From a virus, in the IMG/VR virus record IMGVR_UViG_3300012985_000002, positions 1-55,584 of that record: a DNA stretch of 55,584 nucleotides. The stretch is one strand, 5' to 3'. This document shows, piece by piece, positions 219-39,428 of the stretch; the first letter of the stretch is position 1, and each line of letters opens with the position of its first letter. The notes below the pieces were generated by a model, which searched no databases, was not told the origin of the DNA, and was given only the letters and a program-made list of their open reading frames with translations. A program made the translations under genes and the position numbers.

Positions 219-555
219 CCCCGAGTTGCGTAACCAAGCGTAACTACGGGAAGTGGGAGCGTAACCGGGCGCGTAACCGGCCCGGTTACCATGCGAGACA
301 TGGCAAGGTGGGCAACGTAACCAGCGTAACCACCCCCGGCAAACCCCCCTAGGTTACTATGATCTTGTACGTTATTATCTAACTTCCCTTCAAGGGATGA
401 GAAGAAGTAAATGTAGGTTACAGAGGCCAGTTCCAAAAAACCGGTTACGCCGGTTACGTTGGGCAGGTTCCCATGCGAGACATGGGAAGCAGGCCGGTTA
501 CGCGACTAGTTACGCGAACCCTTGCCGTAGTTACGTGTGGTTACGCAGTTCGGGC
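219..555. promoter_or_regulatory. Mirrored 8-bp iteron array, candidate origin or master control site
   Basis: Twelve copies of (G/A)CGTAAC(C/T) lie at 228, 238, 259, 271, 315 and 324 in one orientation. The inverted form lies at 443, 452, 496, 508, 529 and 539. Every left copy mirrors a right copy about base 387 (start plus partner end is 774 in all six cases). A 15-bp hairpin, ccatg-cgaga-catgg, also occurs at the mirrored positions 289-303 and 471-485. Spacers are much less conserved than the 8-mers. The roughly 60-bp centre (358-420) is AT-rich. This fits a multi-site DNA-binding array such as a replication origin or early control region. Extra, unmirrored copies are at 554-561 and in the palindrome at 624-634. 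Confidence 0.75.
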
Positions 556-662
556 GTAACCATGACGTTGGTTGTGAGCAAGGGTAAAGAGCGGCCATGC
601 AGCTAACCAGGAAGCAGAGACATGCGGTAACCGCAAGTGACTATACGTACACCCTGTGCGCC

Positions 663-986: not shown

Positions 987-1226
987 TCAGGCCGACTGAG
1001 CCAGGTTGTTCTGGATGAACACCTGGACCGCAGCCTTGTTGGCATCGCGGTAGGCCTCGATGGTTGCAGCAACCTGAGGCAGGTTGGCAGCAGCGTTGAG
1101 CACGTGAACTCCAGACATGTCCTGGAAGTTCTCGATGTCGACCGCGAGGGTACGAGTGGTGTTGACGTAGAAGCGCTCGAGCTGTTCGAGCGGGTTACGT
1201 CGGGCAGGACGCTTGTCCTTAGCCAT
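987..1226 (-). CDS. Small basic-to-neutral protein of unknown function (79 aa)
   Basis: This is the only gene in the left control region, transcribed alone and leftward. I chose ATG 1226 over the longer frame from 1250 because a strong AAGGAG lies 7 bases upstream of it and none precedes 1250. The product starts MAKDKRPARR, a charged N-terminus, and continues as a mostly helical, Ala- and Asn-rich chain. It has no cysteines and no membrane segment. It has its own -10-like element and a terminator. Isolation beside the iteron array suggests a regulatory or DNA-associated role, but I do not recognise the family. Confidence 0.8.
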   Translation of the reverse strand: MAKDKRPARRNPLEQLERFYVNTTRTLAVDIENFQDMSGVHVLNAAANLPQVAATIEAYRDANKAAVQVFIQNNLAQSA

Positions 1227-1252
1227 GATGGTCTCCTTAGATGGTAGCATAG

Positions 1253-1793: not shown

Positions 1794-4700
1794 GTGGCTT
1801 GGACTGATGAGGTCGCCGACAAGGACCCCTTCAACTACGCGCCGAAGGGTCTCAAGCAGACTCGCGAGCTCGCGTGGGCTGATGGTGCTGCGAGCCTGGA
1901 CCCTGGACTGCGGGTCGGCTGGCAGACGGGTGGACGTGTCGGCGGTACGGAGAACGCGTTCAACGACGAGTTCTTCACTCGGATGTACGACCAGTACGAC
2001 GAGGAACAGCAGAAGATCCAGGACAACCCGGACTATGTCTCCGACCTGTTCCTCCGCCCTGACTTCACCGGCATCGTCGGCTGGAACCAGACGTTCGCGA
2101 AAGACGGCTACTTCAAGGGTAACGCCCAGCTCAGCGAGGGCGACCGCCAGTTCAAGGTCGGCGATGTCTACGACAACGGTGTCTTCCAGGGCAACGTGTA
2201 CGATCGGGACTCCGGCTTCACGCGGGAAGAGGCGAATGCCTACGTCGCCCCGCACATCTTCGGCAAGGACGCCGCTGACAAGTATCGCGAGGCCGACGGC
2301 GACCAGGACAAGCTCTATGAGATGATCCAGGAGCAGGGTGCCAAGGAAGGTAAGCTGGTCGAGGCTTACGTCACCCGCGCGCCCTACCAGCAGTCCGTCA
2401 ACAAGCTGCTGAGCGACTGGGAAGGTGGAGCCTGGGACGAGTTCCTGATCCCGGTCGCGGGCTTCGCTGGCGGTGCGGCTGCTGGTGCTGCGTTCGGCTG
2501 GCCGGGTGCGATCGTCGGTGGCATCGCGGGTGCTGTCGGCAGTCTCGCGAACGTCGATGAGGCCCGCACCATGGCGGCTCAGGCGTTCGTCAGCACCGGC
2601 CTCATGGCTGAGGAAGGCACCGACGCTCAGATCGCGCACCTGACGGCCAAGGCAGGTGAGTTCGGCGTCAGCCGCATGAACGTCCTGACCAACCTGACCG
2701 CTGGTGCCGTCGATGTCTTCTCCGGCAACTGGGGCGACGACCTCTCTGAGATCCGCGAGGCGCAGGCTGCTGGTAACTGGGGCGCGGACGTCGCCCTCGG
2801 GGTCACCGGGTTCGTGGACGGCATGCTCATGTCGTCCAACAAGGCCGCTGTTGCTGCCTACACTGCCTCGATGGGCGGCTCTGCCCTCGGCAACGCCTAC
2901 AACAAGGCCACGAACGACGGGGAGTGGGATGAAGTCACAGGCTCCTTCCACAAGTACGAGAGCATGGAGCAGCGACTTGCTGCAGCTGGTGCTTCCGCGA
3001 TCGACATCAGCCAGATGCTCATGCCCAGTCTGCTCCGATACTCCGCTAGCCGGAACGTCGGTGGGACGAAGAACAGTGCACTGGACGACCTGGCCCCTCG
3101 CAACCCCGACGCCGTCCGCACCACCACCACGATGGACCGCACCTTCGACGTCAAGATGGGAGCAGACGGTGTCGTGCGCGCAGAGCGAGAGTCTCTCGCT
3201 CAGACTATCACCGCCTGGATGGTCCCCAGCACCGCTATCAATCGTCTGGCGGTACGTGGATCGGCCTATGCAGACGTGCTCCGACGGGGTGGCAGCTCTG
3301 TCACCGCGGACGATCTGTATCAGGCGGCGGTGCGCATGGAACGCGCCACAGTACCCTGGAAGCTTGCCCTCGTCAACGGCTTCGGCGAGGCCACTGAAGA
3401 AGTCCTCCAGACGTACCTGAACGGTGCGGCAACTGGTTGGGCTGCTCAGCCGCAGGAGCTCCTGAACGCTGCCGTCGCAGGCTTCGCGATGGGCGCGGGT
3501 ATGAGTGTCGGCTCCAGGGTCGGCACGTTCTCCGCCGACGAGCGCGCCAGGTACCGCGCCAACACCCTCCTGCTGAACGACGGACAGCAGCCCTTCAGCC
3601 GCACGGAGTGGAAAGCTGTCGACCCCGCCACGAAGCGCATGCTGTCGACCGCCAACCAGACCACGGAGCGTCGCCTCCGTCGTCAGCGCGAAGACTACAT
3701 GGACGACACGACGCAGCAGCTCGTGAGCTCTGTCGTCGCGGCGTATCAGAAGGAAGACGCCCTCAAGACGATCCTCAAGAAGCAGCAGCTCACTCCCGGC
3801 GAGTGGGAAGACGCTCTCGAGGACATGGCCGACATCCTGCCGTTCAACGACGTGCGGATGCCCAGCTACATGATCTTCCACTCCGCGAAGACCACGCTGG
3901 CCAAGCTGAACAACCGCCTGAGCGCTCTGAGCCAGCAGCTCATCGAAGAGGACACCGACCAGCAGCAGGACCAGAACGTGCAGGGCGTCCACGACACCCT
4001 CGCCGGGCTGATGACCGAGCTCAACGGCCTCTACGAAGAGTACGTGCGTACCAACGGCACGGACCCGCTCGCGCGCATCAACCGTCTCCTGCAGGACTAC
4101 TGGGACGGCACTGCTCAGGTCGACGCACCCAGCATCCTGCAGCAGCAGGCGGTGGAGCTCATCTTCTCCCGCCTCCCGAACGACAACCCCGGCTCGTTCC
4201 AGATGCTTCTGCCTCAGATCGACTTCGAGATGGAGGCCAACAACGCTCACGGGATGAGCAAGGTCTCCCAGTCGTTCGAGAAGCTGCTCAGCCACGACAA
4301 CGACGGCGACAAGCTCAAGCACATGGCGCGGTATGTCCCGAACCGGGGCGCTCGCGAGCAGCTCCGCCTGGGCATGAACCACTGGGCACCCGTCGAGGGC
4401 GTCGAGGAAGCGGGTACCCGTGGCGGCGGCTTCCTGAACGTCGCCAAGCGTGGCTACGAGGACGCGATCCTCATGCTGCAGCAGTTCACGCTGGCCGGGT
4501 TCGACGTCGACGCGCAGAAGGAAGTGCGCAACACGTACGACGCCCTGGTCAAGGACCTCAAGCAGTCTCTGCCCGGCGTGCGCTCCAGCACGTTCACGAA
4601 CTTCCGCAACATGCTGGAGAAGAACCCGGACGGCGCGAAGCAGGAGTTCTACCGCGCCCTCGCGCTCGACTACTCCAAGCTCATCAGCCTCGGTCGCTCG

Positions 4701-7700
4701 GGTACCAAGCCCGAGTACGTCAAGAACAACTCGCTCAAGCCTGAGCAGATCGTCAAGCCCGGTACCTCCATCGGCATCTGGATCGAAGACAAGATCCAGC
4801 AGCACCTGGAGGTCTGGCGCGACGCCCACGCGACCCGTGAGACGGCAGAGTTCGTCAAGAGCGGCACGAAGGGTGCACAGCCCCAGGGCCTGCAGGCGGG
4901 TACCCCCAGCACGGTAGAGACGGCAGCTGCAACCCTCGGTCAGACCAACGAGCAGCGCTCTGGTGGCTCCGACCCGTTCCGCTCGATGGGTGGCCTGCAG
5001 TACGGCCCCATCAACTCGGTCGCTCGGGACGCTGACGGTCGGCACAACCCCTCCGAGCTCCGCCAGGCGATCATCGAGTGGTACACCAACCTCACCCGCC
5101 TCCGCCCGTACAGCGCTCTCACCACGCTGCGTCAGGGCGGCTCGCCCGTCGTTCGTGAGGCTCGGGCTGACCTGGAGAACCTGGCGTACCAGAAGTACCC
5201 CGACCTGATGAAGAACCCGGCGACGAGGGATGAGACCCTCATTCGCCTGGCCAACTCCCCGTTCTGGAACGTGGACGAGAGCCAGGTCGACACGTTCGAC
5301 TTCCAGGTCCACGACGCCTCTGCCACGATCGGCTCGGTGCTCATCAAGGCTGCTGCTGCTCGTCAGGCGGCGCTGGCTCCCGTCGCGTTCGGTGAGCTCG
5401 ACGCCAACGAGGCATACGCCACTGTTACTCCCGCGCGCGCGATGCAGCTGCTCAACGGTGCAGTCACTCCGAGCACGGTGCTCCCGAAGGAGCAGGCAGA
5501 CCAGCTCGGCGCGTTCTCGTCCCTCGACTCGCTCATCCGTGACTACACGATGATCCAGAGCCGTCAGCAGCGCTCTGACTGGCGCGCTCGGGCAGAGCTC
5601 CACAGCGCGTACACCGAGCTCAACGCCGTGGGCGAGCCCTCGCTCTACCGTCTGCTGGTGGACACCATCCGTGAGGCGAGCGACAAGGAACTCAGCCACG
5701 CTGCTGACGGCACGGCACAGGGTCGTCTCGCCCGTGAGGACAAGACGTTCCACGAGAAGCACGTGCTGCCGATCTTCCAGAACCTCGCGCACATGATGGA
5801 CACGCTCGGGCTCAGGGGCCTGAGCCGCCAGGGGATCATCAACACCCTGGAGAATAACAGCCGTGTTCTCCAGAACGTGCTGAGCATGTTCCCCGCCGAG
5901 ATGCAGCTCGCGATCCTGAAGGCCCCGAACCCGAAGGCCAGTCCTCGCGACTTCGCCATTCCCGGCTGGTTCTTCGACATGCTGCTCGAAGAGAACGCCG
6001 AGAAGGCCGCGTTCATCTACTGGGACGCCATGCTCCAGATGGACCTGGACATGTACGGCAAGGATGCACACCCCGGCAACGCGTGGGTGCAGCTGTACTC
6101 GACCCTCGACGCCGCTGGCAAGCAGACCCTGGACGACATGCGAGCCACGGCGACCTCGGTTCAGCAGTTCGTGGACGAGGTCAACCGCGAGATCACGTTC
6201 AACCAGGCCCCGCTCCTGGCCTGGCGCACGGACACCACGCTCTACTCGCCCGACTCCACCAAGAGTGGCTGGCAGTGGAGCGCGCCGTCGGCAGAGCGTC
6301 GTCAGGCGATCCGTGACGCGGCCAAGTACTTCAAGGAGAACGCTCAGGCGCTCCCGTCCGAGGTCGAACTCCAGGCCCGTAACCTCGGCTACGCGACCGA
6401 CCTGCTGAACGCTCTGCAGAAGCCCGACACGTACAAGAGCGCTCAGCTCAGTGACGCGATCAAGGCTCTGGACAACCGTCTGAAGCAGAGTGGGGTCCTT
6501 CGTCAGCCGACGATGGGTCCTCGTGGCCGTCGTGCCTTCGTGGAGCGCTCCTTCCGTGGTATCGACCCCGGCTCCGCCTCCAAGGGTGTGGCCAGCCCTG
6601 GCATCGCTCAGTACGGCGACACCGACGTTCGTCGTGACCAGACTGCTTTCGGCTCCCAGCTCGACCAGACGTTCAGCGCTCTGCTCGCCGGTGACGCCAA
6701 GAGCATCTCGTTCAACCCCCAGGCTCTGATGCAGGAACTTCGCCTGCAGACCGAGTCCGGTGCGATCATCGACTGGACTCCGCTGACCACCGAGCAGTTC
6801 CTCCAGCTGTTCATCATGGAGGACGGCGCGTACCAGAACCTGCTCTTCGCGCTGATCAACCCGTCGGTGTACGAAGAGACTGGCCCCGGTAAGGCGGTGC
6901 AGCAGTATCTCTTCCCGCAGGACCTCGAGAAGATCGTCGGCACGACGTTCTATAAGGACCTGATCAACGGTACGGGTGGTCGGAACAAGCACGAGACCAA
7001 CGAGCTCTTCCTGAGCTACGTCGACTCGCTCACCAACGGCAACCTCGTCACTCGCATGCTCGCCGACTCGGCGATCGCGCGGACCACGACAATCGAGACC
7101 CTCACCAACTCCGCCTACGAGAGCATCGTGGCTGACGTGGCGGAGGCGATTCGCTCGCTCATGGGTCTGGCCCCTGGTCAGGGTGACGCGCTCCGTGGCC
7201 TGCTGGAGACGCAGGCACTCAAGGACTACGAGCCGATCCCCGGTCTGGGACAGCTCGGCGCTCTTCCTGCTCCCGCGCGCGAGGCGCAGATCGACAACAT
7301 GATCCAGCTCTATCAGGGCGCGCTCGACGTCGCCGTGAAGAACTGGGAGGCCAACAAGACGATCGACAACGCCGACCTCGTGTACGAGGCTTCGGAGAAG
7401 CTTGGCATCGCCCAGGGTCTCAAGAACACTCGCAAGTACGGCGAGCTTCAGATGAACGCTCTCAAGATCGACTGGGACAGCCCGACCGCCCAGCGCGTGA
7501 CCAAGACGATGATCACGCAGTACATCGAGACGTTCGGCCCGTCCCTCGCCACCACCATGACGGGTGACGACGCCAAGACCCTGTCCAAGTGGAACCTGGC
7601 TCAGACCGACCACATGGACATCTTCAAGTCGTTCAGCACGGACGAAGCCGCAGACCGCAAGGTGTGGGACGAGCTCAGCAAGATCGTCGCCCTGCACCGC

Positions 7701-10700
7701 ACGCTGACGAAGAGCGGCTACCTGGCGAGTGACTCGATCGCGTCGCCGACCACGAAGGAGTGGGGTCAGTTCGACCCGACGTTCGTCTACCTGACCAAGG
7801 ACATGGTCAGCGACGAGTTTCTGAGCGTGCTCAGCAACCTCCGCAAGGCCGTCCCCGACGCCATGCCGCCTCGCAAGAGCGTGGACGCGGTCGTCACTGA
7901 CCTGAACAAGACGGTGCTCCGCCCGAAGAACTTCGGCAAGTGGGTCCCCGACCTGGTCATGCAGCACTCCGGCTCCAGCCGGTATCTGGACAGCTCGGGC
8001 TCGCCCCAGCAGATCGCGATCGGTGGCGAGCTCCTGAAGAGCATGATCGCCGCCACAATCAGCGCTCGTCGTACGAACACGCACCCCACGCCGGATATGG
8101 CGCGCGCGTACAAGATCGACGCAGAGGAACTGATCGCTAGCGAGACCGACTTCTTCGGTCGTGGTCTGCAGGGCGAGCCTTGGGCAATGCTCGAAGGCGC
8201 GTCAGTTGTTGCCCCTCGCTACAACAGCGAGACGGGCAAGACCGAGGGTGCAGGTCCTGTGCTCATCGCTCGGGACACAGCAGGCAACGTCATCAAGGAG
8301 ATCCCGCTGACGCTCGCCACCAGCCGTATCACGAACGGTGGCAAGGACCTGGAGGGTGTGCCCGGCACGATCGCTCAGATCACGCACCAGTCGATGATCG
8401 AGGCTGTCAAGACGGCCATGAGCACCTTCAAGGGCTCTGCCGTGGCAGGCTCCTACTCGTCTATCTCCGTCGAGTTCCAGATGTTCAACCCCGTCATGAA
8501 GCCTGCGATGGACCCCTCGAAGCCTGCCGATAAGCAGGTCAACTGGGCGAACAACATTCACTTCGACGGTACGCTGGGTCAGACGGACACCAGCACGAGC
8601 ATCTACGCCGCCCTGCTGGCAGGTGTGGACGGTCTCGTGCAGCGTCTGGAGCGTGCTGCTCTCGACGCGATCAAGGGCTCGCTGGCGATCTTCACGACGG
8701 CTCACCCGCGTGGCTTCGACGGCAAGGACCCGAACCAGCTGCTCGACCTGCTGTACGACATCACTGCTGACGTCATGCGTACCCCGATGGGGGAGGACTA
8801 CCTGTTCCCGAACAACGCCTACAAGGGCGTGTTCCGTCTGGTCCGTGACCGTCTGCTGGTCACTGGTCAGGACGCGGAGGGCAACAAGGTCACGCTCTCG
8901 TCCGAGCAGGCTCTGACGACCGACCTCTCGCAGTACACCGACCTCAAGGTGGTCGAGCTCAGCACCCGCTCGCTGGAGACTCTGCGTGGTGCAACGGGTG
9001 GCTCCGGTCACCCGCGCAACCTGCAGAAGGCTCCGCGAATCGGTGGTGAGGGCGAGCCGTGGAAGGGGTACTACGAGCCGTTCCAGCTGGAGCGTATGCC
9101 TCAGCTCGGCACTCAGCTCACCGACCTCAACCAGATCGCAGAGGCCCTGCGCACGTCGGGCCTGCTGGACCGTGACCGCGTGCAGACGTTCCAGTACGGC
9201 ACGCACACGGCTGACGAGCGTACCCAGCAGCACCGCAAGTTCGAAGAGTTCATCGAAGAGCGGTCGGCAATCGCCAAGGCTCGTCGCGAGCGTGGTACTC
9301 AGAAGCGCTACCGCTCCGTCAACACCGGTGTCGCGATCGCGTGGCGCAACCTGCTTCGTCAGGACCAGCGTGTGCGTCGTGCCACGACCGACGCCCTGCA
9401 GGAGGACCTCGGCGGTGTCAAGCCGAATCGCGATCTGACGATCCAGGACGCTCACCGCTCGCTGAGCAACATCCTCTCGTACGCGAACGGCAACGAGGCA
9501 CGCCTGTTCCTCGTGGACCCGAGCGATCTGCAGGCGAACGGTGACGAGGGTCGCCTCACGTCCGTCCGCAAGGACCAGGGCGAGCGCTGGAGCAACGTCC
9601 GCCCGGTCAACGACATCGTGATCCTACAGCTGGACGGCTACGAAGAGGCTCCCGGTACCCCTGAGTGGAACCGTCTCGTCGTGGACGAGCTCGCCGCCAT
9701 GAAAGAGCGCGGTCTGACCATCGGCCTCACGTCGGCCAAGGACCCGAACGCTGCCAGTATGGCCCGCGACCTGCTCCTGCAGAGCCAGGGTCCGTACGAG
9801 TCGGTGAACGATGACCTGTTCATCTTCGCCCCTGTGACTCGTGTGGACGAGGGTCGTACCCTCGCTGCCCGTCGTGCTACCCTGACGGAAGCCAAGGTGC
9901 AGAGCCTGCGCGGCTACGTGCTCGCGGCCTACTCCGAGGACGGCTTCTACGCCACTGACGCTGAGGGCGTGCAGATCGACCCGCTCAGCAAGTGGCTGGG
10001 CTACACCCAGGGCTACGCCTCGGACATCGTGCCGACCACCGGCATGAACCAGTACCACTCGCCGGGCACGCCTCAGGCTGGCCAGCGCATCGCACAGGTC
10101 TACGACTACCTGCTCAAGAACAACGGCGCGCTGTACCTCATGGAGCAGCAGGCCATGGGCGGTGGCGGTGACACGACCCTGGAAGAGTTCCAGACTCTGC
10201 TCCAGCGGGCGTACGACAACCTGGACCGTGCAACCGGTCGTCCCAAGGTGAACACCGAGTTCCGCCCTGGCGACCTCGTGGCCACGATCAACGAGATCGG
10301 GAGCCTCACGTTCACGCGCTGGGGCTACGACTCCACCGACGTGGACTTCGAGTCGCAGGACCGTAACGGCCTCGACGGCATCTCGATCGAGGGTATTCCG
10401 TCCACAAAGTCGATCCGTCTCGTGGCAGGCAAGAAGCTGCCCCATGACAAGGCATCGCTCCGTGGTGGTACGATCGAGCAGGTCTTCATCGACCCGGTCT
10501 TCGGTCTCCGCATCCTGTTCAAGAACGACATCAACCTCTACGGTGCGAAGATGGTCGATGAGCACGGAACGAAGACTCGCTCCGTGATCCTGGCCGAGAA
10601 CAAGCTCCCGTCGGTGCCGATGTTCAATGACACGCGGCCCGCCATGTACGCGGACTACCCGACGACCATCAAGAAGGGTGTCAATGCGCAAGGTACGGTA

Positions 10701-13700
10701 CTCAACGCCCGCGAAGGCATCTTCGTCTACGGCATGGACTTCCACCGCACTCTGGCCAACGCCCTCTGGTACGGCACGCCTGGCACGCCGTACTACGATG
10801 TGGACACTTGGGCTGCTCTGGACCCTGATGAGCGTGCAGGTATCTCTGCCCGCGTGGTGAACGCTCTCGAGCTCGCTCGTCTCAAGGAGACCGAGCGCAT
10901 CTCCGACAACGAGGACCTGGCGTTCTCGGTGTACAAGAGCAACCAGCTCTCCGAGACGGCTCGCGCCCTCATCGAAGAGCAGGGCGGTGCTACCCTCGGC
11001 TCGGCTCAGCTCCGCGCCAAGTACGCTGCTGCTGGTGTGAACGTCGATGAACTCCAGGTCGAGCAGCTGTACCTGTCTGCTGCCCTGCAGTACCTCAAGG
11101 GTAACGGCACGTCGGTGTATCACGTGCTCGGCTCCCCTGGTTTCGAGCAGGATGCGAACATCGAGGACCGCGAGTCGCTCAAGATGCCCGCGATTCTGAC
11201 GCAGTTCATCGACATGAACCTGCCCCTCCGCAAGTACGTGATTGGAGACGTCAATGCCCGGATGTCGTCAAACGAATACGATCCCCTCGACGGCTCCCTC
11301 GTCCAGGGCTGGCTGGTCCAGTCGGATTGGCGTGTACTCCTGCGGCGTGCCAACGGAACTAGCAATACCGTGGTCCTTCGATCGGTACGCGCTGAGGCCA
11401 CAGGTGAGGACCACAGCGAACGGTCTGAACTCAACAGTGATCTGGCTACCCACGATGTTGCCTCGAACCAGCAGCAGATGTTCGCCCGCGAGACCATCGG
11501 ACTCGATCTTGGCTACGCTCGACGCGATCCTAAGCTTTCGCGACTCCTTGAGGCAACGGCCTATTCCGAAGAGCGCGTCCGAGACCTTACGTTCGGGCGT
11601 GCCGCAGAGCGCCTGGCAGGTCGAAGCTCTGAAGAGCAGTCTTATCGGGATGAGAACAGCAGCAAGGCCCGCGGCTACCTGACCCCGATCACTCGTGAGC
11701 TCGGCACGGTCGCCGACGAGAAGGTCGTCGACCGCATGTACGACGAGGCTTACAAGCACCTGGGCCTCGTCAAGAGCGGTACCGCCAAGCGCATGGTCGA
11801 CTCGATGATCCGCATGTACTACCGTGCAGTCAGCGACCCGAACAACCCCGAGGTCGACAAGCGGAACGCGGCTCAGATGAAGGAGGCGCTGGCCTCGATC
11901 AACGCCTCGCTCGCTGCCTACCGCTGGCCGATGGACTCGTCTGCCATGCCTCTCATGCACGGTGACGTAGTGGACTACATCGCCCGCAACGGTACCTGGA
12001 CGCCAGAGAACGTCACGGTGACGGGTGACAAGCGTGCCTTCATGCTGCAGAACGCCCTGGACAACACCATGGCTTCGGCGCAGGAGGTCCCGGTCGAGGC
12101 GCAGCGTGAGATCGACGCTCTGTTCGCTACCTACGAGAAGTACTTCTCGAAGGGCTTCTGGCCCGCGTCGGCCTACCCGGCTGTCATCGAGCGTCTCGCG
12201 TCGGCAGGAGACGGTACGTTCGTGTCGTCCATCGACCCGTACCGCCAGATGCAGCTGGAGGGTGGCGACCCCTACGCTGAGTACGACGGCATCGCACCCG
12301 ACTCTGCCTACGTCGGTACGACCGGCGCTGGCACGAAGCTGGAATCCAGCCGTCGAGCATGGCGTACCCGCGAGCGCACCAAGGATCGTGGCGGCGACCA
12401 GCCCACGAACATGCTGACTCGCGCCAACCAGGGTGCTCAGTACCGCGACAAGGTCAACTATGTCGCTGGGTTCTGGCGCAACGCCCACGCTCTGCGTACC
12501 ATCACTCCTCAGCTCAACCCGTGGCTGTGGATCTGGAACCCGATCGACTTCCAGTGGCGGCGGATGCCTGCAGCAATGCAGCAGGCTGTCTCTGGTCAGG
12601 GTGTCAACTGGGCTGGCCAGCGTATCCGTGACGGTGTCCAGTTCCTCGCGGACAAGACCGAGTCCTCGCTCCTGACAATGGACCCGGAATCGCGCAAGGC
12701 TGCTGCTCTGCAGGCCTGGACGGACGCGTTCGGCGTCACCCAGCCGTGGATCACGCCCGAGGCGAACGCGTTCCTCAAGGAGACGGTCGACACGATGATG
12801 GCGAACCAGGACTTCCGGTCCGCCCTTGCCGAAGAGTCGCGCCACCACCCTGATGACGAGCTCCTGACTCGCGGTGACCGTCAGCGTCAGAAGGCAGTGG
12901 ACTGGGCGAGCCGCTCGCAGGACCTCCTGCGTGGTCTCGCGAGCCGTGCACAGGTCGAGGCTTACCTCGTCGCCCTCATGGAGAACGAGCGGATCAACAA
13001 CCCGAACGTCACTGCCATGCAGATTCTCGAGCGCCTGCACCGCAACCCTCTCGCGTTCAAGCAGATGGGTCCGTTCGACTCCCACACCAAGGGCGTCCGC
13101 ACGGTGCAGAACTTCAAGGGCGCGAAGCTGACTGCGATCGGTGCTCTGGTCGACCGCATCCTCATCCCGATGTCTGAGAGCCCCAACGCGATCCTGTCGG
13201 GACCGGCGAACACCCTGCTGCTCATGGCCAAGTTCCGCAACTTCGCCTTCTCGTCTGCAGTGCAGATGATGGGCGGGCAGGCTGTCGACGCTGCTGCGAC
13301 GATTCTCATGCAGGCTGTGGCCTTCCGCAAGCAGGCTTATCGTCGTGCGCGTGGCCTGGAGCCTGAGACGCCCAACGACTACATCTCTCGTACGATGGAG
13401 TCGGCAGACATGGCCGACCTGTTCATCAGGTCGGGTATGTCCCTCACCGGTCTCTTCTTCGCGGGCCTGGCGTTCAACGCCGCAGGTCTTACGGGTGAGA
13501 CCGAAGAAGAACGGCGGAAGCGTAGGATCGAGCTCCTGCAGGGTCTCGGTACGCTGTACGACCCCCGCGACATCGCGAACTCGTTCCTGAACGAGAACGC
13601 CGTCTGGCTGGAGGGTCTTGCGAACGGGCCTCTTGCACCGCTCGCCGCGTGGTTCCGAGTGGAGACCGGTGAGGGTCAGCCCATGCGTTCCCCTGCTCAG

Positions 13701-15248
13701 ATGCACTGGACGCTGAACTTCTTCGTGTCGCCCATCATGGGTGTCGCAGAGTTCATGCAGACCGGTGACTTCTCTGACCTCGCGGACGGCTTCTTCGGCG
13801 CGATCGGCAGCATGCCCCTCATCAACACCAACATGTTCTGGGATGCCTGGACCACGACGGAGAAGATGTACGCTGCTGCTTCCGAAGAAGCCCCCGTGGA
13901 CGTGCAGCAGGGCTCGCAGGTGACCGGTCAGCTCATCAAGGTCGCCGCCACGCTGGAGAAGATGCTGCTCGAGTTCGCGTTCGTGAACGAGCTCGCTGCT
14001 GCCTCTGACGAGTACATGCGCGACCCGTGGACAATGCCTGCAGTCAACGAGTCCGGTCAGCTCGACCGTACTGCTGACGGCCAGCCTCGTCAGACGGACG
14101 TCACCGACGAGCAGCGGGACGAAGAGGGCTTCGTCTACGAGGACGAGATTCAGCGTCCGTACAACGAGGGCCTGTGGCGGTACTACACCGGCTCGCAGCA
14201 GACGCTGGCGTTCCTGTCCTCGCTCGTGACTGGCTTCACGTCGAACAACACGGCTCAGTCGTTCTGGCGTCAGGACCAGGTGGTCGACGGTACCACGATC
14301 AAGCGTGAGGGTCTGGACATGGAGACGGCTGAGGCCGTGATCATGTCGGTCTACAACGAAGATACGGGCCAAGAGGTTCTCACCACAGAGGGCATGATCC
14401 GCCTCTTCGACTCGCTGCACGCCGGTACTGCCAAGGCTACCGACCCCGCTCTGCAGAACATCTTCATCACTGGCGACCAGCGAGCCGAGCTCAGCGACAT
14501 CATCCAGAAGAAGATCTACGTCGAGGGTGTGGAGACGCTCGGGCTGTCCGAAGACGACGCCATGCAGCGCATGTACGACATCTGGAACGGCCCGAAGAAC
14601 AACCCGTACGTCACGCCTCTGTGGCAGGTCGTGTGGAGCCAGGGCGAATTCCAGAACGAGAACGGTCTGCCGTTCAACGAGACGGTGCGCTACAACCAGC
14701 TCAACACCACTTGGGCTGTCGGCCCTGACGGTAAGATGTGGGCAACAGGTGTGGCTCGTCACAGCGTTCCCGGTCTGGCAGGAGGCGTGCTCCCGCTCAC
14801 GGGCTACCAGGGTTCGGGTGCAGGTGGCCTGCAGGGTAACCTGGGCGTGGACGAGGTTCTCAACTCGACCGACGACGTCATGGGCGTCAACACCGGCTAC
14901 CGCATGCTGACGCGTGTCAACAACAACCTGGAGATTCCCAACGAGGAAGACATCATCAAGGCGATCGAGGACTCGACCAAGCGCGTTGTCGATGAGATCA
15001 AGAACCTCGACTCCGACCTGTACAACAACCTCGACCGCTACCGTGGAGGCTACCGCTACGGTAGCGGTGGTGGAGGCTACGGCGGTGGCGGTGGATCGAA
15101 CCCGTACATGCCGTTCCTCAACGGTATGCGGACGCCGTACGCGGACAACATTCCGAACCTCTACATCAACAACATCAACCCCCGCCGCGCGAGCGTACGT
15201 CGTGAGCGGTTCTCCAGCGAGCGAGGAAGGCTGAACCAGCAGCAATGA
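1794..15248 (+). CDS. Giant virion protein, probable internal/ejection protein (4484 aa)
   Basis: One uninterrupted frame takes about 24% of the genome. Start GTG 1794 has AGAAGGAG five bases upstream. Visible features are a Gly/Ala-rich hydrophobic stretch at about residues 217-252, a GEATEEVLQ motif near 531, a second Gly/Ala membrane-like stretch at about 557-577, long helical Gln/Glu-rich regions, hydrophobic segments at about 3815-3845 and 3880-3900, and a Gly/Tyr-rich tail near 4418-4438. Membrane-like patches in a huge helical protein are typical of large polyvalent phage proteins and podovirus ejection proteins; that family link is inferred. Its stop overlaps the portal start (ATGA). 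I looked for RNA polymerase motifs as in the N4 virion polymerase and did not find an ordered set. Codon use changes at about 11240-11660. Confidence 0.85.
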   Translation: MAWTDEVADKDPFNYAPKGLKQTRELAWADGAASLDPGLRVGWQTGGRVGGTENAFNDEFFTRMYDQYDEEQQKIQDNPDYVSDLFLRPDFTGIVGWNQTFAKDGYFKGNAQLSEGDRQFKVGDVYDNGVFQGNVYDRDSGFTREEANAYVAPHIFGKDAADKYREADGDQDKLYEMIQEQGAKEGKLVEAYVTRAPYQQSVNKLLSDWEGGAWDEFLIPVAGFAGGAAAGAAFGWPGAIVGGIAGAVGSLANVDEARTMAAQAFVSTGLMAEEGTDAQIAHLTAKAGEFGVSRMNVLTNLTAGAVDVFSGNWGDDLSEIREAQAAGNWGADVALGVTGFVDGMLMSSNKAAVAAYTASMGGSALGNAYNKATNDGEWDEVTGSFHKYESMEQRLAAAGASAIDISQMLMPSLLRYSASRNVGGTKNSALDDLAPRNPDAVRTTTTMDRTFDVKMGADGVVRAERESLAQTITAWMVPSTAINRLAVRGSAYADVLRRGGSSVTADDLYQAAVRMERATVPWKLALVNGFGEATEEVLQTYLNGAATGWAAQPQELLNAAVAGFAMGAGMSVGSRVGTFSADERARYRANTLLLNDGQQPFSRTEWKAVDPATKRMLSTANQTTERRLRRQREDYMDDTTQQLVSSVVAAYQKEDALKTILKKQQLTPGEWEDALEDMADILPFNDVRMPSYMIFHSAKTTLAKLNNRLSALSQQLIEEDTDQQQDQNVQGVHDTLAGLMTELNGLYEEYVRTNGTDPLARINRLLQDYWDGTAQVDAPSILQQQAVELIFSRLPNDNPGSFQMLLPQIDFEMEANNAHGMSKVSQSFEKLLSHDNDGDKLKHMARYVPNRGAREQLRLGMNHWAPVEGVEEAGTRGGGFLNVAKRGYEDAILMLQQFTLAGFDVDAQKEVRNTYDALVKDLKQSLPGVRSSTFTNFRNMLEKNPDGAKQEFYRALALDYSKLISLGRSGTKPEYVKNNSLKPEQIVKPGTSIGIWIEDKIQQHLEVWRDAHATRETAEFVKSGTKGAQPQGLQAGTPSTVETAAATLGQTNEQRSGGSDPFRSMGGLQYGPINSVARDADGRHNPSELRQAIIEWYTNLTRLRPYSALTTLRQGGSPVVREARADLENLAYQKYPDLMKNPATRDETLIRLANSPFWNVDESQVDTFDFQVHDASATIGSVLIKAAAARQAALAPVAFGELDANEAYATVTPARAMQLLNGAVTPSTVLPKEQADQLGAFSSLDSLIRDYTMIQSRQQRSDWRARAELHSAYTELNAVGEPSLYRLLVDTIREASDKELSHAADGTAQGRLAREDKTFHEKHVLPIFQNLAHMMDTLGLRGLSRQGIINTLENNSRVLQNVLSMFPAEMQLAILKAPNPKASPRDFAIPGWFFDMLLEENAEKAAFIYWDAMLQMDLDMYGKDAHPGNAWVQLYSTLDAAGKQTLDDMRATATSVQQFVDEVNREITFNQAPLLAWRTDTTLYSPDSTKSGWQWSAPSAERRQAIRDAAKYFKENAQALPSEVELQARNLGYATDLLNALQKPDTYKSAQLSDAIKALDNRLKQSGVLRQPTMGPRGRRAFVERSFRGIDPGSASKGVASPGIAQYGDTDVRRDQTAFGSQLDQTFSALLAGDAKSISFNPQALMQELRLQTESGAIIDWTPLTTEQFLQLFIMEDGAYQNLLFALINPSVYEETGPGKAVQQYLFPQDLEKIVGTTFYKDLINGTGGRNKHETNELFLSYVDSLTNGNLVTRMLADSAIARTTTIETLTNSAYESIVADVAEAIRSLMGLAPGQGDALRGLLETQALKDYEPIPGLGQLGALPAPAREAQIDNMIQLYQGALDVAVKNWEANKTIDNADLVYEASEKLGIAQGLKNTRKYGELQMNALKIDWDSPTAQRVTKTMITQYIETFGPSLATTMTGDDAKTLSKWNLAQTDHMDIFKSFSTDEAADRKVWDELSKIVALHRTLTKSGYLASDSIASPTTKEWGQFDPTFVYLTKDMVSDEFLSVLSNLRKAVPDAMPPRKSVDAVVTDLNKTVLRPKNFGKWVPDLVMQHSGSSRYLDSSGSPQQIAIGGELLKSMIAATISARRTNTHPTPDMARAYKIDAEELIASETDFFGRGLQGEPWAMLEGASVVAPRYNSETGKTEGAGPVLIARDTAGNVIKEIPLTLATSRITNGGKDLEGVPGTIAQITHQSMIEAVKTAMSTFKGSAVAGSYSSISVEFQMFNPVMKPAMDPSKPADKQVNWANNIHFDGTLGQTDTSTSIYAALLAGVDGLVQRLERAALDAIKGSLAIFTTAHPRGFDGKDPNQLLDLLYDITADVMRTPMGEDYLFPNNAYKGVFRLVRDRLLVTGQDAEGNKVTLSSEQALTTDLSQYTDLKVVELSTRSLETLRGATGGSGHPRNLQKAPRIGGEGEPWKGYYEPFQLERMPQLGTQLTDLNQIAEALRTSGLLDRDRVQTFQYGTHTADERTQQHRKFEEFIEERSAIAKARRERGTQKRYRSVNTGVAIAWRNLLRQDQRVRRATTDALQEDLGGVKPNRDLTIQDAHRSLSNILSYANGNEARLFLVDPSDLQANGDEGRLTSVRKDQGERWSNVRPVNDIVILQLDGYEEAPGTPEWNRLVVDELAAMKERGLTIGLTSAKDPNAASMARDLLLQSQGPYESVNDDLFIFAPVTRVDEGRTLAARRATLTEAKVQSLRGYVLAAYSEDGFYATDAEGVQIDPLSKWLGYTQGYASDIVPTTGMNQYHSPGTPQAGQRIAQVYDYLLKNNGALYLMEQQAMGGGGDTTLEEFQTLLQRAYDNLDRATGRPKVNTEFRPGDLVATINEIGSLTFTRWGYDSTDVDFESQDRNGLDGISIEGIPSTKSIRLVAGKKLPHDKASLRGGTIEQVFIDPVFGLRILFKNDINLYGAKMVDEHGTKTRSVILAENKLPSVPMFNDTRPAMYADYPTTIKKGVNAQGTVLNAREGIFVYGMDFHRTLANALWYGTPGTPYYDVDTWAALDPDERAGISARVVNALELARLKETERISDNEDLAFSVYKSNQLSETARALIEEQGGATLGSAQLRAKYAAAGVNVDELQVEQLYLSAALQYLKGNGTSVYHVLGSPGFEQDANIEDRESLKMPAILTQFIDMNLPLRKYVIGDVNARMSSNEYDPLDGSLVQGWLVQSDWRVLLRRANGTSNTVVLRSVRAEATGEDHSERSELNSDLATHDVASNQQQMFARETIGLDLGYARRDPKLSRLLEATAYSEERVRDLTFGRAAERLAGRSSEEQSYRDENSSKARGYLTPITRELGTVADEKVVDRMYDEAYKHLGLVKSGTAKRMVDSMIRMYYRAVSDPNNPEVDKRNAAQMKEALASINASLAAYRWPMDSSAMPLMHGDVVDYIARNGTWTPENVTVTGDKRAFMLQNALDNTMASAQEVPVEAQREIDALFATYEKYFSKGFWPASAYPAVIERLASAGDGTFVSSIDPYRQMQLEGGDPYAEYDGIAPDSAYVGTTGAGTKLESSRRAWRTRERTKDRGGDQPTNMLTRANQGAQYRDKVNYVAGFWRNAHALRTITPQLNPWLWIWNPIDFQWRRMPAAMQQAVSGQGVNWAGQRIRDGVQFLADKTESSLLTMDPESRKAAALQAWTDAFGVTQPWITPEANAFLKETVDTMMANQDFRSALAEESRHHPDDELLTRGDRQRQKAVDWASRSQDLLRGLASRAQVEAYLVALMENERINNPNVTAMQILERLHRNPLAFKQMGPFDSHTKGVRTVQNFKGAKLTAIGALVDRILIPMSESPNAILSGPANTLLLMAKFRNFAFSSAVQMMGGQAVDAAATILMQAVAFRKQAYRRARGLEPETPNDYISRTMESADMADLFIRSGMSLTGLFFAGLAFNAAGLTGETEEERRKRRIELLQGLGTLYDPRDIANSFLNENAVWLEGLANGPLAPLAAWFRVETGEGQPMRSPAQMHWTLNFFVSPIMGVAEFMQTGDFSDLADGFFGAIGSMPLINTNMFWDAWTTTEKMYAAASEEAPVDVQQGSQVTGQLIKVAATLEKMLLEFAFVNELAAASDEYMRDPWTMPAVNESGQLDRTADGQPRQTDVTDEQRDEEGFVYEDEIQRPYNEGLWRYYTGSQQTLAFLSSLVTGFTSNNTAQSFWRQDQVVDGTTIKREGLDMETAEAVIMSVYNEDTGQEVLTTEGMIRLFDSLHAGTAKATDPALQNIFITGDQRAELSDIIQKKIYVEGVETLGLSEDDAMQRMYDIWNGPKNNPYVTPLWQVVWSQGEFQNENGLPFNETVRYNQLNTTWAVGPDGKMWATGVARHSVPGLAGGVLPLTGYQGSGAGGLQGNLGVDEVLNSTDDVMGVNTGYRMLTRVNNNLEIPNEEDIIKAIEDSTKRVVDEIKNLDSDLYNNLDRYRGGYRYGSGGGGYGGGGGSNPYMPFLNGMRTPYADNIPNLYINNINPRRASVRRERFSSERGRLNQQQ

Positions 15249-20172: not shown

Positions 20173-21915
20173 ATGGCGTCCTGGGATCACAGAGCGGGGA
20201 CTGGTAACGGGGCTTACCAGCTTTACCTCTTCGTCAACGAGACAGGTTTCTCGCGTGGTGGCGGGCCTGGACAGGTCTCCCTCGACTGGGAACTCGGCAT
20301 CATCAAGGTCGGTTCCTCGGGAGGCTTCGCATCGTCTGACGGTGCCGTCGAGTGGGAAGTCCACATGTACGGCAACAACAACGGCGACCGCTCTGGCACG
20401 TCGGCGTTCTCCATCGGTGCGAACGAGGCGATCGGTACTCGCAAGGTTCTCGCCACGCAGGCCGGATGGACGTTCGCGTACAACGGAGACTATCTCGGCA
20501 ACCTGTCACTCAACACAATGGCGCGAGCGACGTTCGCCAACTCGATCGGCTCGCCTCAGATCGGGTGGGGCTGGGTCGCCATGTCGGCGGTCGCCTTCAA
20601 TGGTATTGCCCCAGCTGTCCCGATCCTCGTCGCGCGCAACAGTGACACGTCTGTCACGATCCGTGGCTACGACTCGAACGACTGGGGTGTTGGCGGCTCG
20701 GCACTCCAGCACAACCAGGACCGCTCGGACTTCAGCAACTTCACCCCGCTGACCAGTACCGGCTATCCGACGACTGCAGGTGGCGCTGCTCACGACGTCA
20801 CGCACACGATCAACGCACACGCGACGTACTACTTCCGCAACGCAGTTCGAGACCGTGCAGGTTCGTGGCTGGCGTCGGCTGGCCTGACGTTCTACGGTCG
20901 TCCTAGCAAGCCAGGCCCGCCCGAAGTCACGACGGCTACGACGAACTCTCTCACGCTGAACCTGCCCGCTCCGTCGTACACGGGCGCAGCAGTCACGTCG
21001 CGCGAGACTCAGCTCAGCACTGCTGCAGACATGTCGTCCCCGCTGACGAGCACTGCCTCGCCCGCCGTGTTCAACAGCCTGCCGCGTGCAACCAAGCACT
21101 ACACGCGGCAACGTCTCACGACGAGTGCAGGCACGAGTGACTGGTCTGACATCGTCGAGGTCTCTACAATCGGCTCGCCTCCGAGCGCTCCGACTGGCTA
21201 CGGCATCACGGACCTCGCCTCGACCTCTGCCACGGTGACGACCGGCTCCCTCGCTGACAATGGTGGTGCGGTACCGTCGCAGGTGCGCGTCAAGCTCAGC
21301 ACGACGGCGAGCGACGCAGGCCTGCTGTCTACGACCACCCAGACCTCGTGGAACCCGCTCCGCCTCAACAGTCTGACGGAGAACACCACGTACTATGTCG
21401 CTGAGGCGGCGTACAACGACGTGCCTGGTGGTGGGTGGGGTCCGTACGGTGCGTGGGTGCCGTTCACCACGCTCAACACCGTACCCAATTCGCCGGTGCT
21501 GTCGGCGTCTGGCATCACTGGCAACTCGGCAACGCTGCAGTGGACTGTGCCCTCTGACCTCAACGGTGCAGTCATCACGGCGTACAAGCTCCGCGTGGCT
21601 CGCGACGCCGCTCTGACTCAGAGCGTGCAGGACTTCACTCTCGCCCCTGGCTCGCTCGCTCAGGTGCTCTCGGGTCTGGCGACAGCGACGCAGTACTTCG
21701 CGACCGTCTGGACGGAGACCGACAAGGGTCGAGGCTCGTCCTCTAACGTGCTGTCGTTCGCAACCACGGGTGGTGGCGGCGTACAGTCTGGCGTGTACAT
21801 CGATGTGGCAGGCGTGCCGAAGTTCGCAGAGGTCTGGCTCGACGTGGCCGGTGTCCCGAAGCGGTGCGAAGTCTACATCGACGTGGCAGGTGTCCCGAAG
21901 CTGGTGATCCAGTGA
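20173..21915 (+). CDS. Fibronectin type III-repeat minor tail/fibre protein (580 aa)
   Basis: An N-terminal beta-rich domain (about 1-160, Gly/Trp/Asn-rich) and a linker domain are followed by about three fibronectin type III-like modules at roughly 242-330, 333-430 and 434-535. These show the usual P-x-x-P starts, paired Leu-x-x-Leu-x-x-x-Thr-x-Tyr ends and Thr/Ser-rich strands. After a Gly run come three 13-residue copies of a (Y/W)(I/L)DVAGVPK unit (542-580). Such proteins decorate virions or bind cell-wall sugars. The start is 6 bases after the previous stop with a weak ribosome site. Confidence 0.65.
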   Translation: MASWDHRAGTGNGAYQLYLFVNETGFSRGGGPGQVSLDWELGIIKVGSSGGFASSDGAVEWEVHMYGNNNGDRSGTSAFSIGANEAIGTRKVLATQAGWTFAYNGDYLGNLSLNTMARATFANSIGSPQIGWGWVAMSAVAFNGIAPAVPILVARNSDTSVTIRGYDSNDWGVGGSALQHNQDRSDFSNFTPLTSTGYPTTAGGAAHDVTHTINAHATYYFRNAVRDRAGSWLASAGLTFYGRPSKPGPPEVTTATTNSLTLNLPAPSYTGAAVTSRETQLSTAADMSSPLTSTASPAVFNSLPRATKHYTRQRLTTSAGTSDWSDIVEVSTIGSPPSAPTGYGITDLASTSATVTTGSLADNGGAVPSQVRVKLSTTASDAGLLSTTTQTSWNPLRLNSLTENTTYYVAEAAYNDVPGGGWGPYGAWVPFTTLNTVPNSPVLSASGITGNSATLQWTVPSDLNGAVITAYKLRVARDAALTQSVQDFTLAPGSLAQVLSGLATATQYFATVWTETDKGRGSSSNVLSFATTGGGGVQSGVYIDVAGVPKFAEVWLDVAGVPKRCEVYIDVAGVPKLVIQ

Positions 21916-34063: not shown

Positions 34064-35180
34064 TGTCAATCCGACTGGCGACTACCACTCTGAAATCAAT
34101 CCGCTTTTTGCGGCTGCTTTCAACAAAGTTCAGGCACAGGAGGCTGCTGCGGCGGCAGGCCAGAGCGGAGAAGCGGCTGGCGCTCCTGCAGAAGGAGCTC
34201 CGGCACCAACTCCTGGTGACCAAGGAGCTGGAGCAGCTGCTGGAGATGGAGCAGCACCGGGAGACGGAACTCTCGCCGGTGCCCCCAGTGCCGGTGATCT
34301 TGCGGCAGGAACCGGAGTTCAGACTCCGGGAGCTGGAGTTCAGCCGCCTGCCTCTGGAGCCGGAGCTGGATCATCCGCTCCTGCTGGAGCTCCTGAATCT
34401 CCCGCCGCAGGAGAACTCCGAGGACACGAAGCTGCTGAAGTCACCCGAATCCTCGGAGACGCCCAGTCCGCCGCCAACGAGCGACTCGACGCCGCAATCA
34501 AGAACCAAGCTCTGAGCGAGTACCGGGACTCCATCAACCCCGAGATTCTCGAAGCGCTTCGGTTCTCGCCGACCGAGCTCGTCGGCACGGAGGTTCCGAG
34601 CATCCAGCGTGGAGCACAGCCCGGCACGAAGGTGCTCATCCGGGACGGCCAGCAGGCTCGTGACTACATCGAAGGCGCGAGCAAGCTGATCGAGCGTGGG
34701 GTCGAGGACTTGGTGGGTACCAAGAACCGCGAGCTCCAGCCACTCCGCTCTGTGATCCAGGAGTCGTTCCTGCTCTTCCAGAACAACCCCGACATCGTGG
34801 AAGGTTCCAAGACCTTCGACAAGGAGCTGGCAACGCGGTTCGCGTCCATGGCTCAGTCGTTCGCGTTCATCCACAACGGGCAGACCATCGGCTACCAGGG
34901 CAACGTCCAGCCGATGCTGAACGAACTCCGCACCAACCTCGCCAAGGAGCGCGGTGCGAGCGGTGAGCGGGTCAACGCCGCTCAGCGTGCAGAGCAGCAG
35001 CGACAGGTCGCCGCTCAGCAGCAGCGTCAGCCCAACGGTCAGTTCCAGGGTCAGCAGCCCCAGGCTGGCATTCCCTCGACACAGGGCATGTCTGCCGACA
35101 AGGGCGAGGACGACGACTACGGCGCGTTCTGGCAGGCCAGCGGTGCTGCACACCTTCGGCGGGGAGTCACCCCGCTGTAA
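34056..35180 (+). CDS. Putative scaffolding protein (374 aa)
   Basis: ATG 34056 lies inside the end of the previous gene. Residues 22-130 are almost only Ala, Gly, Pro and Glu, and the rest is helical with a Gln-rich stretch (QRQVAAQQQRQ) and an acidic DKGEDDDYG tail. Low-complexity, charged helical proteins of this size in packaging modules are often scaffolds. Codons in the Ala/Gly part are unusual for this genome (GGA, GCT, CCT instead of GGC, GCC, CCG), which links to the overlapping frame at 34063-34515. Confidence 0.55.
   Translation: MSDVNPTGDYHSEINPLFAAAFNKVQAQEAAAAAGQSGEAAGAPAEGAPAPTPGDQGAGAAAGDGAAPGDGTLAGAPSAGDLAAGTGVQTPGAGVQPPASGAGAGSSAPAGAPESPAAGELRGHEAAEVTRILGDAQSAANERLDAAIKNQALSEYRDSINPEILEALRFSPTELVGTEVPSIQRGAQPGTKVLIRDGQQARDYIEGASKLIERGVEDLVGTKNRELQPLRSVIQESFLLFQNNPDIVEGSKTFDKELATRFASMAQSFAFIHNGQTIGYQGNVQPMLNELRTNLAKERGASGERVNAAQRAEQQRQVAAQQQRQPNGQFQGQQPQAGIPSTQGMSADKGEDDDYGAFWQASGAAHLRRGVTPL
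34063..34515 (+). CDS. Possible overlapping gene in +1 frame (150 aa)
   Basis: An ATG that shares bases with the stop of the 33425 gene (tgATG) opens a 150-codon frame nested in the putative scaffold gene. Its product is basic and helical at first (LLRRQARAEKRLALLQKEL), then Leu/Glu-rich, then Pro/Ser-rich. In this frame third positions are GC-rich as in real genes here, while the scaffold frame is atypical. No separate ribosome binding site is visible beyond coupling. It may be a by-product of Ala-Gly codon repetition. Confidence 0.25.
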   Translation: MSIRLATTTLKSIRFLRLLSTKFRHRRLLRRQARAEKRLALLQKELRHQLLVTKELEQLLEMEQHRETELSPVPPVPVILRQEPEFRLRELEFSRLPLEPELDHPLLLELLNLPPQENSEDTKLLKSPESSETPSPPPTSDSTPQSRTKL

Positions 35181-37690: not shown

Positions 37691-37958
37691 CGGCAGGCGG
37701 GATCGGCTTCATGAGGAGTCGCACTTGCTTGATGTGGTACCGACCCTCGCACGACCCGCACTCGCACGCTAGCGGGTGCCAGAACGCTTCCTCCAGGGAG
37801 TAGGTCTCGCGGAGTTCCCCGCGCTCTTCTAGCGGAAGAGCCTTGATCGGATTTGCCTCTGCCTGAATCCTTCTACGTCTCTCTAGTTCCTTGACCCTGT
37901 GACGAGCGTACCACCGCTCGTAAGCCTCAGGCGAGAGCTCCTGCTTCTTGCTGCTCAC
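37572..37958 (-). CDS. Last leftward gene, Cys-containing protein (128 aa)
   Basis: I chose GTG 37958 because it overlaps the upstream stop as GTGA; an in-frame GTG at 37982 is the alternative. The N-terminus is highly basic and helical (RVKELERRRRIQ), then comes a CECGSC cluster that may bind metal, then a helical C-terminus. It overlaps the last late gene by 119 bases tail to tail. Small basic Cys-cluster proteins in this position are often nucleases or DNA-binding factors, but I see no catalytic motif. Confidence 0.65.
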   Translation of the reverse strand: MSSKKQELSPEAYERWYARHRVKELERRRRIQAEANPIKALPLEERGELRETYSLEEAFWHPLACECGSCEGRYHIKQVRLLMKPIPPAVKSVVAHLPELPSQVLRLLQDVEERFLSTEDSQTTQHSE

Positions 37959-38515
37959 GGCGTCAGCGTCCCGTTCTCCCACTCGGGCCAGAGCGTCAGG
38001 TTCGCCGGACGCTTGAGCTTGACCCGGAATCCCTTGCGTACCTTGTACGCCTTACCGACCTCACGCCCTGCGATCTTGGTCTTGTACGGCTTGCCGAAGT
38101 ACTCCTGCAGCACCCAGTTGATGTGGCGCAGGTGGCTGTTGGCAGAGCCGTTCTGCCCTCCGCCCCTTGGACTCACGTCCTGCAGACCCTCGGCTTCGAT
38201 CAGGTCAGTGACCTTGATACCCGTCGTCCACTCATAGACCATCACGGCAGTGATACGATGAGCAGTCTTGTCGCTCATCGTGGCGAGTGCGGCGCGGACC
38301 TCCCGCTCCCACGCTACACGCTGAGGGTTCTCTGCGATGACGAACTTCTCTTGTGTCAGAGGCATGCGACCACGAGACTCTACGGGCAGAGCCAGGTCCT
38401 CAATGTACTCAGACGTACGCGGTTCAAGAGCCGTGCTCGTGAACTGCTGTCTGATGTTCGGGTTGTGCCTTGCCTGTAGCTCGCGCTCGATGTCGCTGAG
38501 TTCCCTCTCGGCCAT
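37955..38515 (-). CDS. Putative DNA-binding protein (186 aa)
   Basis: It has its own promoter (38546-38556) right after the terminator of the primase unit and GGAAGGA before ATG 38515. The middle (about 75-140) is helical and could hold a helix-turn-helix (VMVYEWTTGIKVTDLIEAEG). The C-terminus is strongly basic (VGKAYKVRKGFRVKLKRP). The family is not recognised. Separate promotion at the end of the early arm is consistent with a middle or late regulator, by inference. Confidence 0.6.
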   Translation of the reverse strand: MAERELSDIERELQARHNPNIRQQFTSTALEPRTSEYIEDLALPVESRGRMPLTQEKFVIAENPQRVAWEREVRAALATMSDKTAHRITAVMVYEWTTGIKVTDLIEAEGLQDVSPRGGGQNGSANSHLRHINWVLQEYFGKPYKTKIAGREVGKAYKVRKGFRVKLKRPANLTLWPEWENGTLTP

Positions 38516-38606: not shown

Positions 38607-39428
38607 TCACGCGTAGTTCGCCACGTTCCTGATGAGCTCCTCGACCTCGTCAGGCGGCAGACCGACTTCGAGTCCTCGACGCCGAACCTCAGCCTCCCAG
38701 TTCGGGAAGTTCGCGGCCTGCATCCTGGCCCCGATCTTGTAGAGCTGGTTGTTCCGGCTACCCGCTGTGAACTTTGAGTTGAGCTTCGTCAACAGCGAGT
38801 CGTGAAGAATAGCGAGCTCTTCCTCGTCCAGTGCCAGTGCACCGTGTGCGGTGACCCTGGTCTGGTAACGAATCTCACGAGCCCTGCCGATGAGCTCACC
38901 CAGCGACGGAGGCAGTGGAGCCACGTCGAGGTTGTTGAACTTCTGGTTGGCGAAGTGGAACACGATGCCGGTGCCCTTGATGTCCACGCCGGGAATCAGG
39001 CCGATGACGTCAGGGAACTCATCGTACCCGTACTCCACGTCCCACACCGTGTATGGGACGCTGTAGAACAGGTGATACCCGTTCCCGCCCTTCGATCTCT
39101 CCGCCAGTGTCTTCGGCAGAGCCATGACCTTGCTCGTGCCGATGCCACCGTTCTTGCCGTCGATGTCGACACAGATCATCGGCAGAGACCGCATGACGAT
39201 GCCGTACGGCTGAGCGTAGCGGTCGAACAGTCGCAGAGACCGCTCCACCTGGAAGTGACCCTCAGCCTGGTTGCGAACGAACTCGTCTCGACCCCACCCC
39301 TTCTGAGTGGTGCCGTTGGAGTTGACTCGGACCAGGCTAGCCTTGGGCCAGTTGGCTAGTTGTGCAGGGAGGTCACGAGAGAAGTACTGATCGTGATCTT
39401 CGAACCACTGCTGATTGGGACGCAGCAT
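38607..39428 (-). CDS. Prim-Pol-type DNA primase (273 aa)
   Basis: Makes primers for phage replication. The archaeo-eukaryotic Prim-Pol signature is visible: ICVDIDGKNG with D88 and D90, a GGNGYHLFY strand with H119, and GVDIKGTG with D149. The C-terminal part is helical (LPPDEVEELIRNV). GGAG lies 6 bases before ATG 39428. It follows the SF3 helicase by 3 bases, so together they form the split equivalent of a D5/P4-type primase-helicase. Confidence 0.8.
   Translation of the reverse strand: MLRPNQQWFEDHDQYFSRDLPAQLANWPKASLVRVNSNGTTQKGWGRDEFVRNQAEGHFQVERSLRLFDRYAQPYGIVMRSLPMICVDIDGKNGGIGTSKVMALPKTLAERSKGGNGYHLFYSVPYTVWDVEYGYDEFPDVIGLIPGVDIKGTGIVFHFANQKFNNLDVAPLPPSLGELIGRAREIRYQTRVTAHGALALDEEELAILHDSLLTKLNSKFTAGSRNNQLYKIGARMQAANFPNWEAEVRRRGLEVGLPPDEVEELIRNVANYA

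Follow-up and report, generated by a model that had tools for sequence, protein, structure and literature searches.

Location of the array

What is the function of a mirrored array of 8-bp motifs lying in non-coding DNA between the early and late genes of an actinobacterial podovirus from soil? The window, which is the whole stretch of 55,584 nucleotides that was analysed, is a circular podovirus contig of about 55.5 kb. Positions 1-123 are identical to 55462-55584, an overlap from circular assembly, so the array adjoins the contig junction. The window has relatives among the Microbacterium phages, in Eekayvirinae and Burrovirus, and is about 76% identical to the Microbacterium podoviruses of Eekayvirinae across parts of the structural genes. 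A giant gene (>4,400 aa) beside leftward early genes and an ortholog of the SF3 helicase place it in the EK-Burro podovirus group (Microbacterium/Arthrobacter). A single tRNA gene, tRNA-Gly(ccc), is predicted at 34252-34336 in the structural gene region.

The array lies in a gap with leftward early genes on one side and a small leftward ORF on the other, followed by the rightward giant gene:

987-1250, minus strand: small ORF, 87 aa, between a structured element and the giant gene
1794-15248, rightward: giant virion-type protein, 4,484 aa

The small ORF sits where relatives have a small leftward gene, and no sequence match to the relatives' genes was detected. The giant gene is treated in the 2020 paper on cluster EK (PMC7302621), whose passages on that cluster, as far as consulted, do not mention this array. 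Pfam gave no informative match for the giant protein, and a viral contig search with its N-terminus gave no confirmed relative. In the interval that separates the array from the first early gene, small hairpins are repeated in tandem at about 125-200. Their loops are AGCC (GGCU on the early-transcript strand); similar hairpins are present in several relatives, and also in G016 (L148).

Geometry of the array

The array has six copies of an 8-mer, RCGTAACY, on one side of an AT-rich core and six inverted copies on the other, with a palindrome within each arm:

228-235, 238-245, 259-266, 271-278, 315-322 and 324-331, plus strand: left arm (228-331), six 8-mers, putative iterons
443-450, 452-459, 496-503, 508-515, 529-536 and 539-546, minus strand: right arm (443-546), six inverted 8-mers, putative iterons
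554-561, plus strand: thirteenth 8-mer, beyond the mirror
332-442: AT-rich core, candidate melting site (44% GC, with 37% GC at 360-440; window 61%)
289-303, plus strand: left palindrome CCATG-CGAGA-CATGG, putative auxiliary site
468-488, plus strand: right palindrome TTCCCATG-CGAGA-CATGGGAA (inner CCATGCGAGACATGG at 471-485), putative auxiliary site

The sequence-only reading of this DNA had described twelve mirrored 8-mers around an AT-rich middle, and both are present exactly as claimed. Each of the six 8-mer pairs sums to 774, and the right arm is the exact mirror of the left about base 387. From the core outward, the start-to-start spacing of the left arm is 9-44-12-21-10. Six mirrored pairs were obtained in 0 of 2000 interval permutations of the window array with orientations fixed (maximum 5). 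Exact matches to RCGTAACY number 14 in 55,584 bp, against 3.04 expected and a maximum of 10 over 100 shuffles. A check of how common the 8-mer is elsewhere in the window showed that 13 of the 14 copies are confined to the array, the remaining copy being at 1193.

The palindrome CCATGCGAGACATGG is at 289-303 and 471-485 (289 + 485 = 303 + 471 = 774), and no further copy with 0-1 mismatch was found anywhere in the window. The mirroring that had been claimed for these hairpins holds for the stems, but the loops share one orientation in both copies.

Arrays in related phages

The same early/late gap holds a dense 8-mer array in nine Akonivirus-type and seven Tinytimothyvirus phages (16 Eekayvirinae), as well as in Burro, in Arete, Araxxi, Zhengyi and MissAmericana (Arthrobacter), and in the IMG/VR contigs L023, L032, L033 and L048. 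The motif differs by lineage, being GCGTAACC in the window and Akonivirus, GYGAACC in Tinytimothyvirus, AGGTAACG in Burrovirus, GTAACGA-like in MissAmericana and AAAACGCG in contig L032. The 9-44-12-21-10 series is identical in CrunchyBoi and HitchHiker despite a different 8-mer (the window having GCGTAACC and CrunchyBoi GYGAACC); TinyTimothy, Wesak and Pabst, again with a different 8-mer, have the first four intervals of the series. Most relatives have two sites 8-10 bp apart on each side of the AT-rich core, L032 being an exception. The AT-rich cores between mirrored sites span 54-144 bp, and core GC is below that of the flanks in all 18 gaps measured. The expectation that the layout would be fixed in related phages is thus borne out for the place of the array and in part for the spacing, but not for the 8-mer, which turns over by lineage.

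Mirroring is less general. Among 29 arrays, with p values uncorrected for multiple testing, mirror symmetry goes beyond interval permutation at p<=0.0005 in the window, Akoni, Fede, L023, G006 and G011, and at p<0.01 in Burro, Mazun, G013 and G014, while many others, such as PhriedRice, Pabst, G005 and G017, lack significant mirroring. The exact 12-site mirror is special to this genome, and relatives are less regular.

The place of the array could also be predicted. A search with the SF3 helicase gave 74 IMG/VR relatives, and in 13 contigs the array place was computed beforehand, assuming the same distance of about 15 kb upstream of the helicase. In four of five palindrome-bearing contigs the palindrome was no more than about 1 kb from where it had been predicted (found at 44,667 vs 44.5 kb expected, 23,766 vs 23.6, 13,181 vs 13.0, and 20,576-20,839 vs about 21.4); in the fifth, G016, it was at 5.6 kb vs 11.8 expected, about 6 kb off. 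The regions examined in nearly all 13 contigs contain dense repeat arrays. Further 8-mers in these contigs are GTAACGA, GCTTCTA, GCGTGTAT, GTGACTA, GTAGACA and AGTCACC; the stretches examined in G007 and G008 had no clear 8-mer.

The palindrome CCATG-NGAGA-CATGG is common to several of the 8-mer motif classes and occurs with 0-1 mismatch in Burrovirus. Exact copies are confined to the array gap in the scanned genomes, and a genome scan of MissAmericana did not find it. By inspection, an element containing GCAGGTCAG takes its place in G011-G013 and G017.

Beside the array is a long structured element at 740-960 (about 758-949), with RNA fold z-scores of -7.8 on the plus and -6.4 on the minus strand. 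It had no match in an Rfam search, and RNAalifold on a sequence-only alignment gave almost no structure. Compensating changes preserve its central hairpin of 7-8 bp, directly 5' of an invariant GCAAGCGYC, in each of the 24 gaps where it was found, MissAmericana included. The element might represent a non-coding RNA acting as primer or regulator, or else a stem-loop in the DNA at which priming takes place.

A putative initiator

Four genes are relevant to the proposed function of the array:

37955-38515, minus strand: gp1, conserved small protein, predicted winged-helix topology
38607-39428, minus strand: Prim-Pol (AEP-type) primase-polymerase, adjoining the helicase gene (Pfam match under the curated cut-off)
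39432-40871, minus strand: D5-type SF3 helicase, 479 aa, proposed iteron-binding initiator
44135-46537: family A DNA polymerase

Genes for gp1, the prim-pol, the SF3 helicase and an SF2 helicase are present in all 17 genomes checked. The SaPI5 primase-helicase is the best match of the SF3 helicase both by profile (7ola, E 8.4e-12) and by Foldseek (E 6e-16; model pLDDT 90.8). In the model, the C-terminal end (387-459) has a helix-helix-strand-strand-helix topology, and residues 387-447 or thereabouts are predicted to form a winged helix, the fold having been assigned by inspection. Residues 401-470 are the least conserved part of the protein, with a mean pairwise identity of 27.5% vs 57.7% for the ATPase. 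Outside its own N-terminus gp1 is about 52-62% identical among relatives, and neither family searches nor Foldseek gave it a significant match.

Divergence of the helicase C-terminus tracks the 8-mer better than does that of the ATPase core, the prim-pol or gp1. Over 28 phages, the correlation (rho) with 8-mer distance is 0.58 for helicase residues 346-400 and 0.43 for 401-460, and lower for the prim-pol (0.36), gp1 (0.30) and ATPase (0.22). Controlling for the ATPase, the prim-pol or gp1 in turn leaves the partial correlation of 8-mer and winged helix standing; none of the reverse partial correlations survives. Residues 1-135, at the N-terminus of the helicase, correlate as well (0.46), and the Mantel tests used do not fully remove shared ancestry, so the link is supporting and not decisive. 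A reading of the 8-mer by gp1 was rejected, as its correlation vanishes once the helicase winged helix is controlled for. The product of 54599-54970, suggested earlier as a binder, is not supported in this role: it was not found in Tinytimothyvirus or Burrovirus, which have arrays. Among the annotated phages searched it was found only in Akonivirus; contig L032, whose 8-mer differs, has it too, and MissAmericana gave a short match.

The array as a probable replication origin

The array is probably a phage origin of bidirectional DNA replication, with the 8-mers serving as iterons to which the SF3 helicase binds through its C-terminal winged helix (probability about 0.75). We infer protein binding, melting and origin activity, as well as a role for the palindrome. 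Protein-binding sites in a fixed layout and a replication origin, both proposed from the letters alone, are well supported by the persistence of the array's place, the kept left-arm spacing, the AT-rich core and the resemblance of the helicase to SaPI5 Rep. Six helically phased sites per side would assemble two helicase rings facing opposite ways, which would melt the AT-rich core and then move apart. The prim-pol would prime and the family A polymerase extend. The CCATG-NGAGA-CATGG palindrome may be an auxiliary site for another factor; that this is gp1, as a second origin protein, is speculative.

Several observations count against an origin. About 15 kb separate the array from the rep gene, and SaPI origins are just downstream of rep; many relatives do not have significant mirroring; and the array sits where early and late operon transcription diverge. 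Cumulative GC skew, proposed as an origin test, has no switch centred on the array and is uninformative for this purpose.

Other explanations

The array lies between early genes running leftward and a giant virion gene running rightward, a position that would also suit a transcriptional master-control region, in which a phage regulator on the 8-mers switches the two operons, and early HTH proteins do exist. This is rather unlikely, because regulation does not need two-sided mirror symmetry around an AT-rich core of 54-144 bp, the HTH protein at 54599 is not common to all array-bearing phages, and 8-mer divergence follows the SF3 helicase C-terminus. The one weak promoter-like match within the array does not exceed chance expectation. 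The roles of origin and transcription switch are not exclusive, and dual use is possible.

A packaging (pac) or partition-like site is improbable. The genomes of EK phages are circularly permuted, as headful packaging would leave them, and must have a packaging start, but the annotated terminase of the relatives lies a long way from the array, towards the opposite end of the structural genes. ParA/ParB were not seen among the proteins searched, and neither kind of site needs mirrored iterons with an AT-rich centre.

The mirror might instead come from a recent inverted duplication alone, with spacing not under selection. Aligned without gaps, the arms make up an inverted repeat of 112 nt with 77% complementarity. 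The identity of arm to arm is 46/48 in the motifs and 30/49 (61%) in the spacers, and falls to 31-40% in the surroundings (17/55 on the inner side of the arms, 16/40 on the outer side). Spacer identity above background indicates that the arms share descent by inverted duplication. The earlier claim that spacers had diverged while motif positions had not is therefore right as to the divergence, but common descent is still visible in the spacers. Duplication as the only cause is very improbable, given the near identity of the motifs, contig L048, which mirrors site positions, a reversed site included, though its spacers have visibly diverged, and the spacing series common to phages using another 8-mer. 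In the aligned arms, motifs were kept and spacers drifted, and the exact mirroring of the window array reflects both inverted duplication and selection.

In a scheme modelled on phage N4, a virion-injected RNA polymerase, here the giant virion protein, would use the hairpins as its promoters. This idea draws on hairpins in an early control region and a virion-associated Burro counterpart of the 4,484-aa protein, and was rejected as barely credible because no polymerase domain was found in the giant protein, the consulted text of the cluster EK paper reports no similarity to the N4 polymerase (PMC7302621), hairpin orientation varies and the hairpins are interleaved with 8-mers.

The origin reading has a more elaborate and tentative version, in which two codes are combined in a fixed mirror register: the SF3 helicase C-terminus would read an iteron that changes fast, and a second conserved protein of the phage, perhaps gp1, would read a hairpin that changes slowly. 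The adjacent covarying stem-loop (about 758-949) would supply the primer RNA or the place of priming. If true, this would be an origin type not described in the literature found. A candidate origin and initiator are now available for this actinobacterial podovirus group. About ten origin 8-mers paired with orthologous initiators under a shared architecture form a natural series, so that the choice of origin by D5/SaPI-type helicases and the drift of specificity under a lasting layout are testable by domain swaps.

Comparison with known systems

The plasmid origins of RK2, P1 and R6K have iterons, short repeats, with an AT-rich unwinding element, as in the array, but their repeats are direct and one-sided and their Rep protein is no helicase. 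The origins of SV40 large T and papillomavirus E1 have symmetric sites, an AT-rich region and an SF3 double hexamer, as proposed here, but the origin-binding domain of those proteins is N-terminal and the DNA sites are unrelated. In phage P4, the C-terminal winged-helix domain of the SF3 helicase alpha reads the origin repeats of ori/crr (PMC4234260, and in part general knowledge); P4 alpha is set apart by carrying a bacterial-type (TOPRIM) primase.

SaPI/PICI elements have a homologous SF3 D5-type helicase (SaPI5) with a C-terminal DNA-binding end (in the phage helicase, a predicted winged helix), together with a primase partner and an iteron sequence that varies by lineage. The C-terminal domain of Cch2 binds its own putative origin (PMC7581432). 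Unlike in these elements, rep and array are about 15 kb apart (on the circular map, rep occupies 39.4-40.9 kb and the array 0.2-0.6 kb), prim-pol and helicase are in separate genes, and there is exact mirror spacing with an extra palindrome per arm. Unlike an integrated phage satellite, the relatives are lytic phages that have genes for capsid and terminase; neither an integrase nor a repressor was identified. By analogy, the array would work like a SaPI/PICI origin, but it belongs to no PICI.
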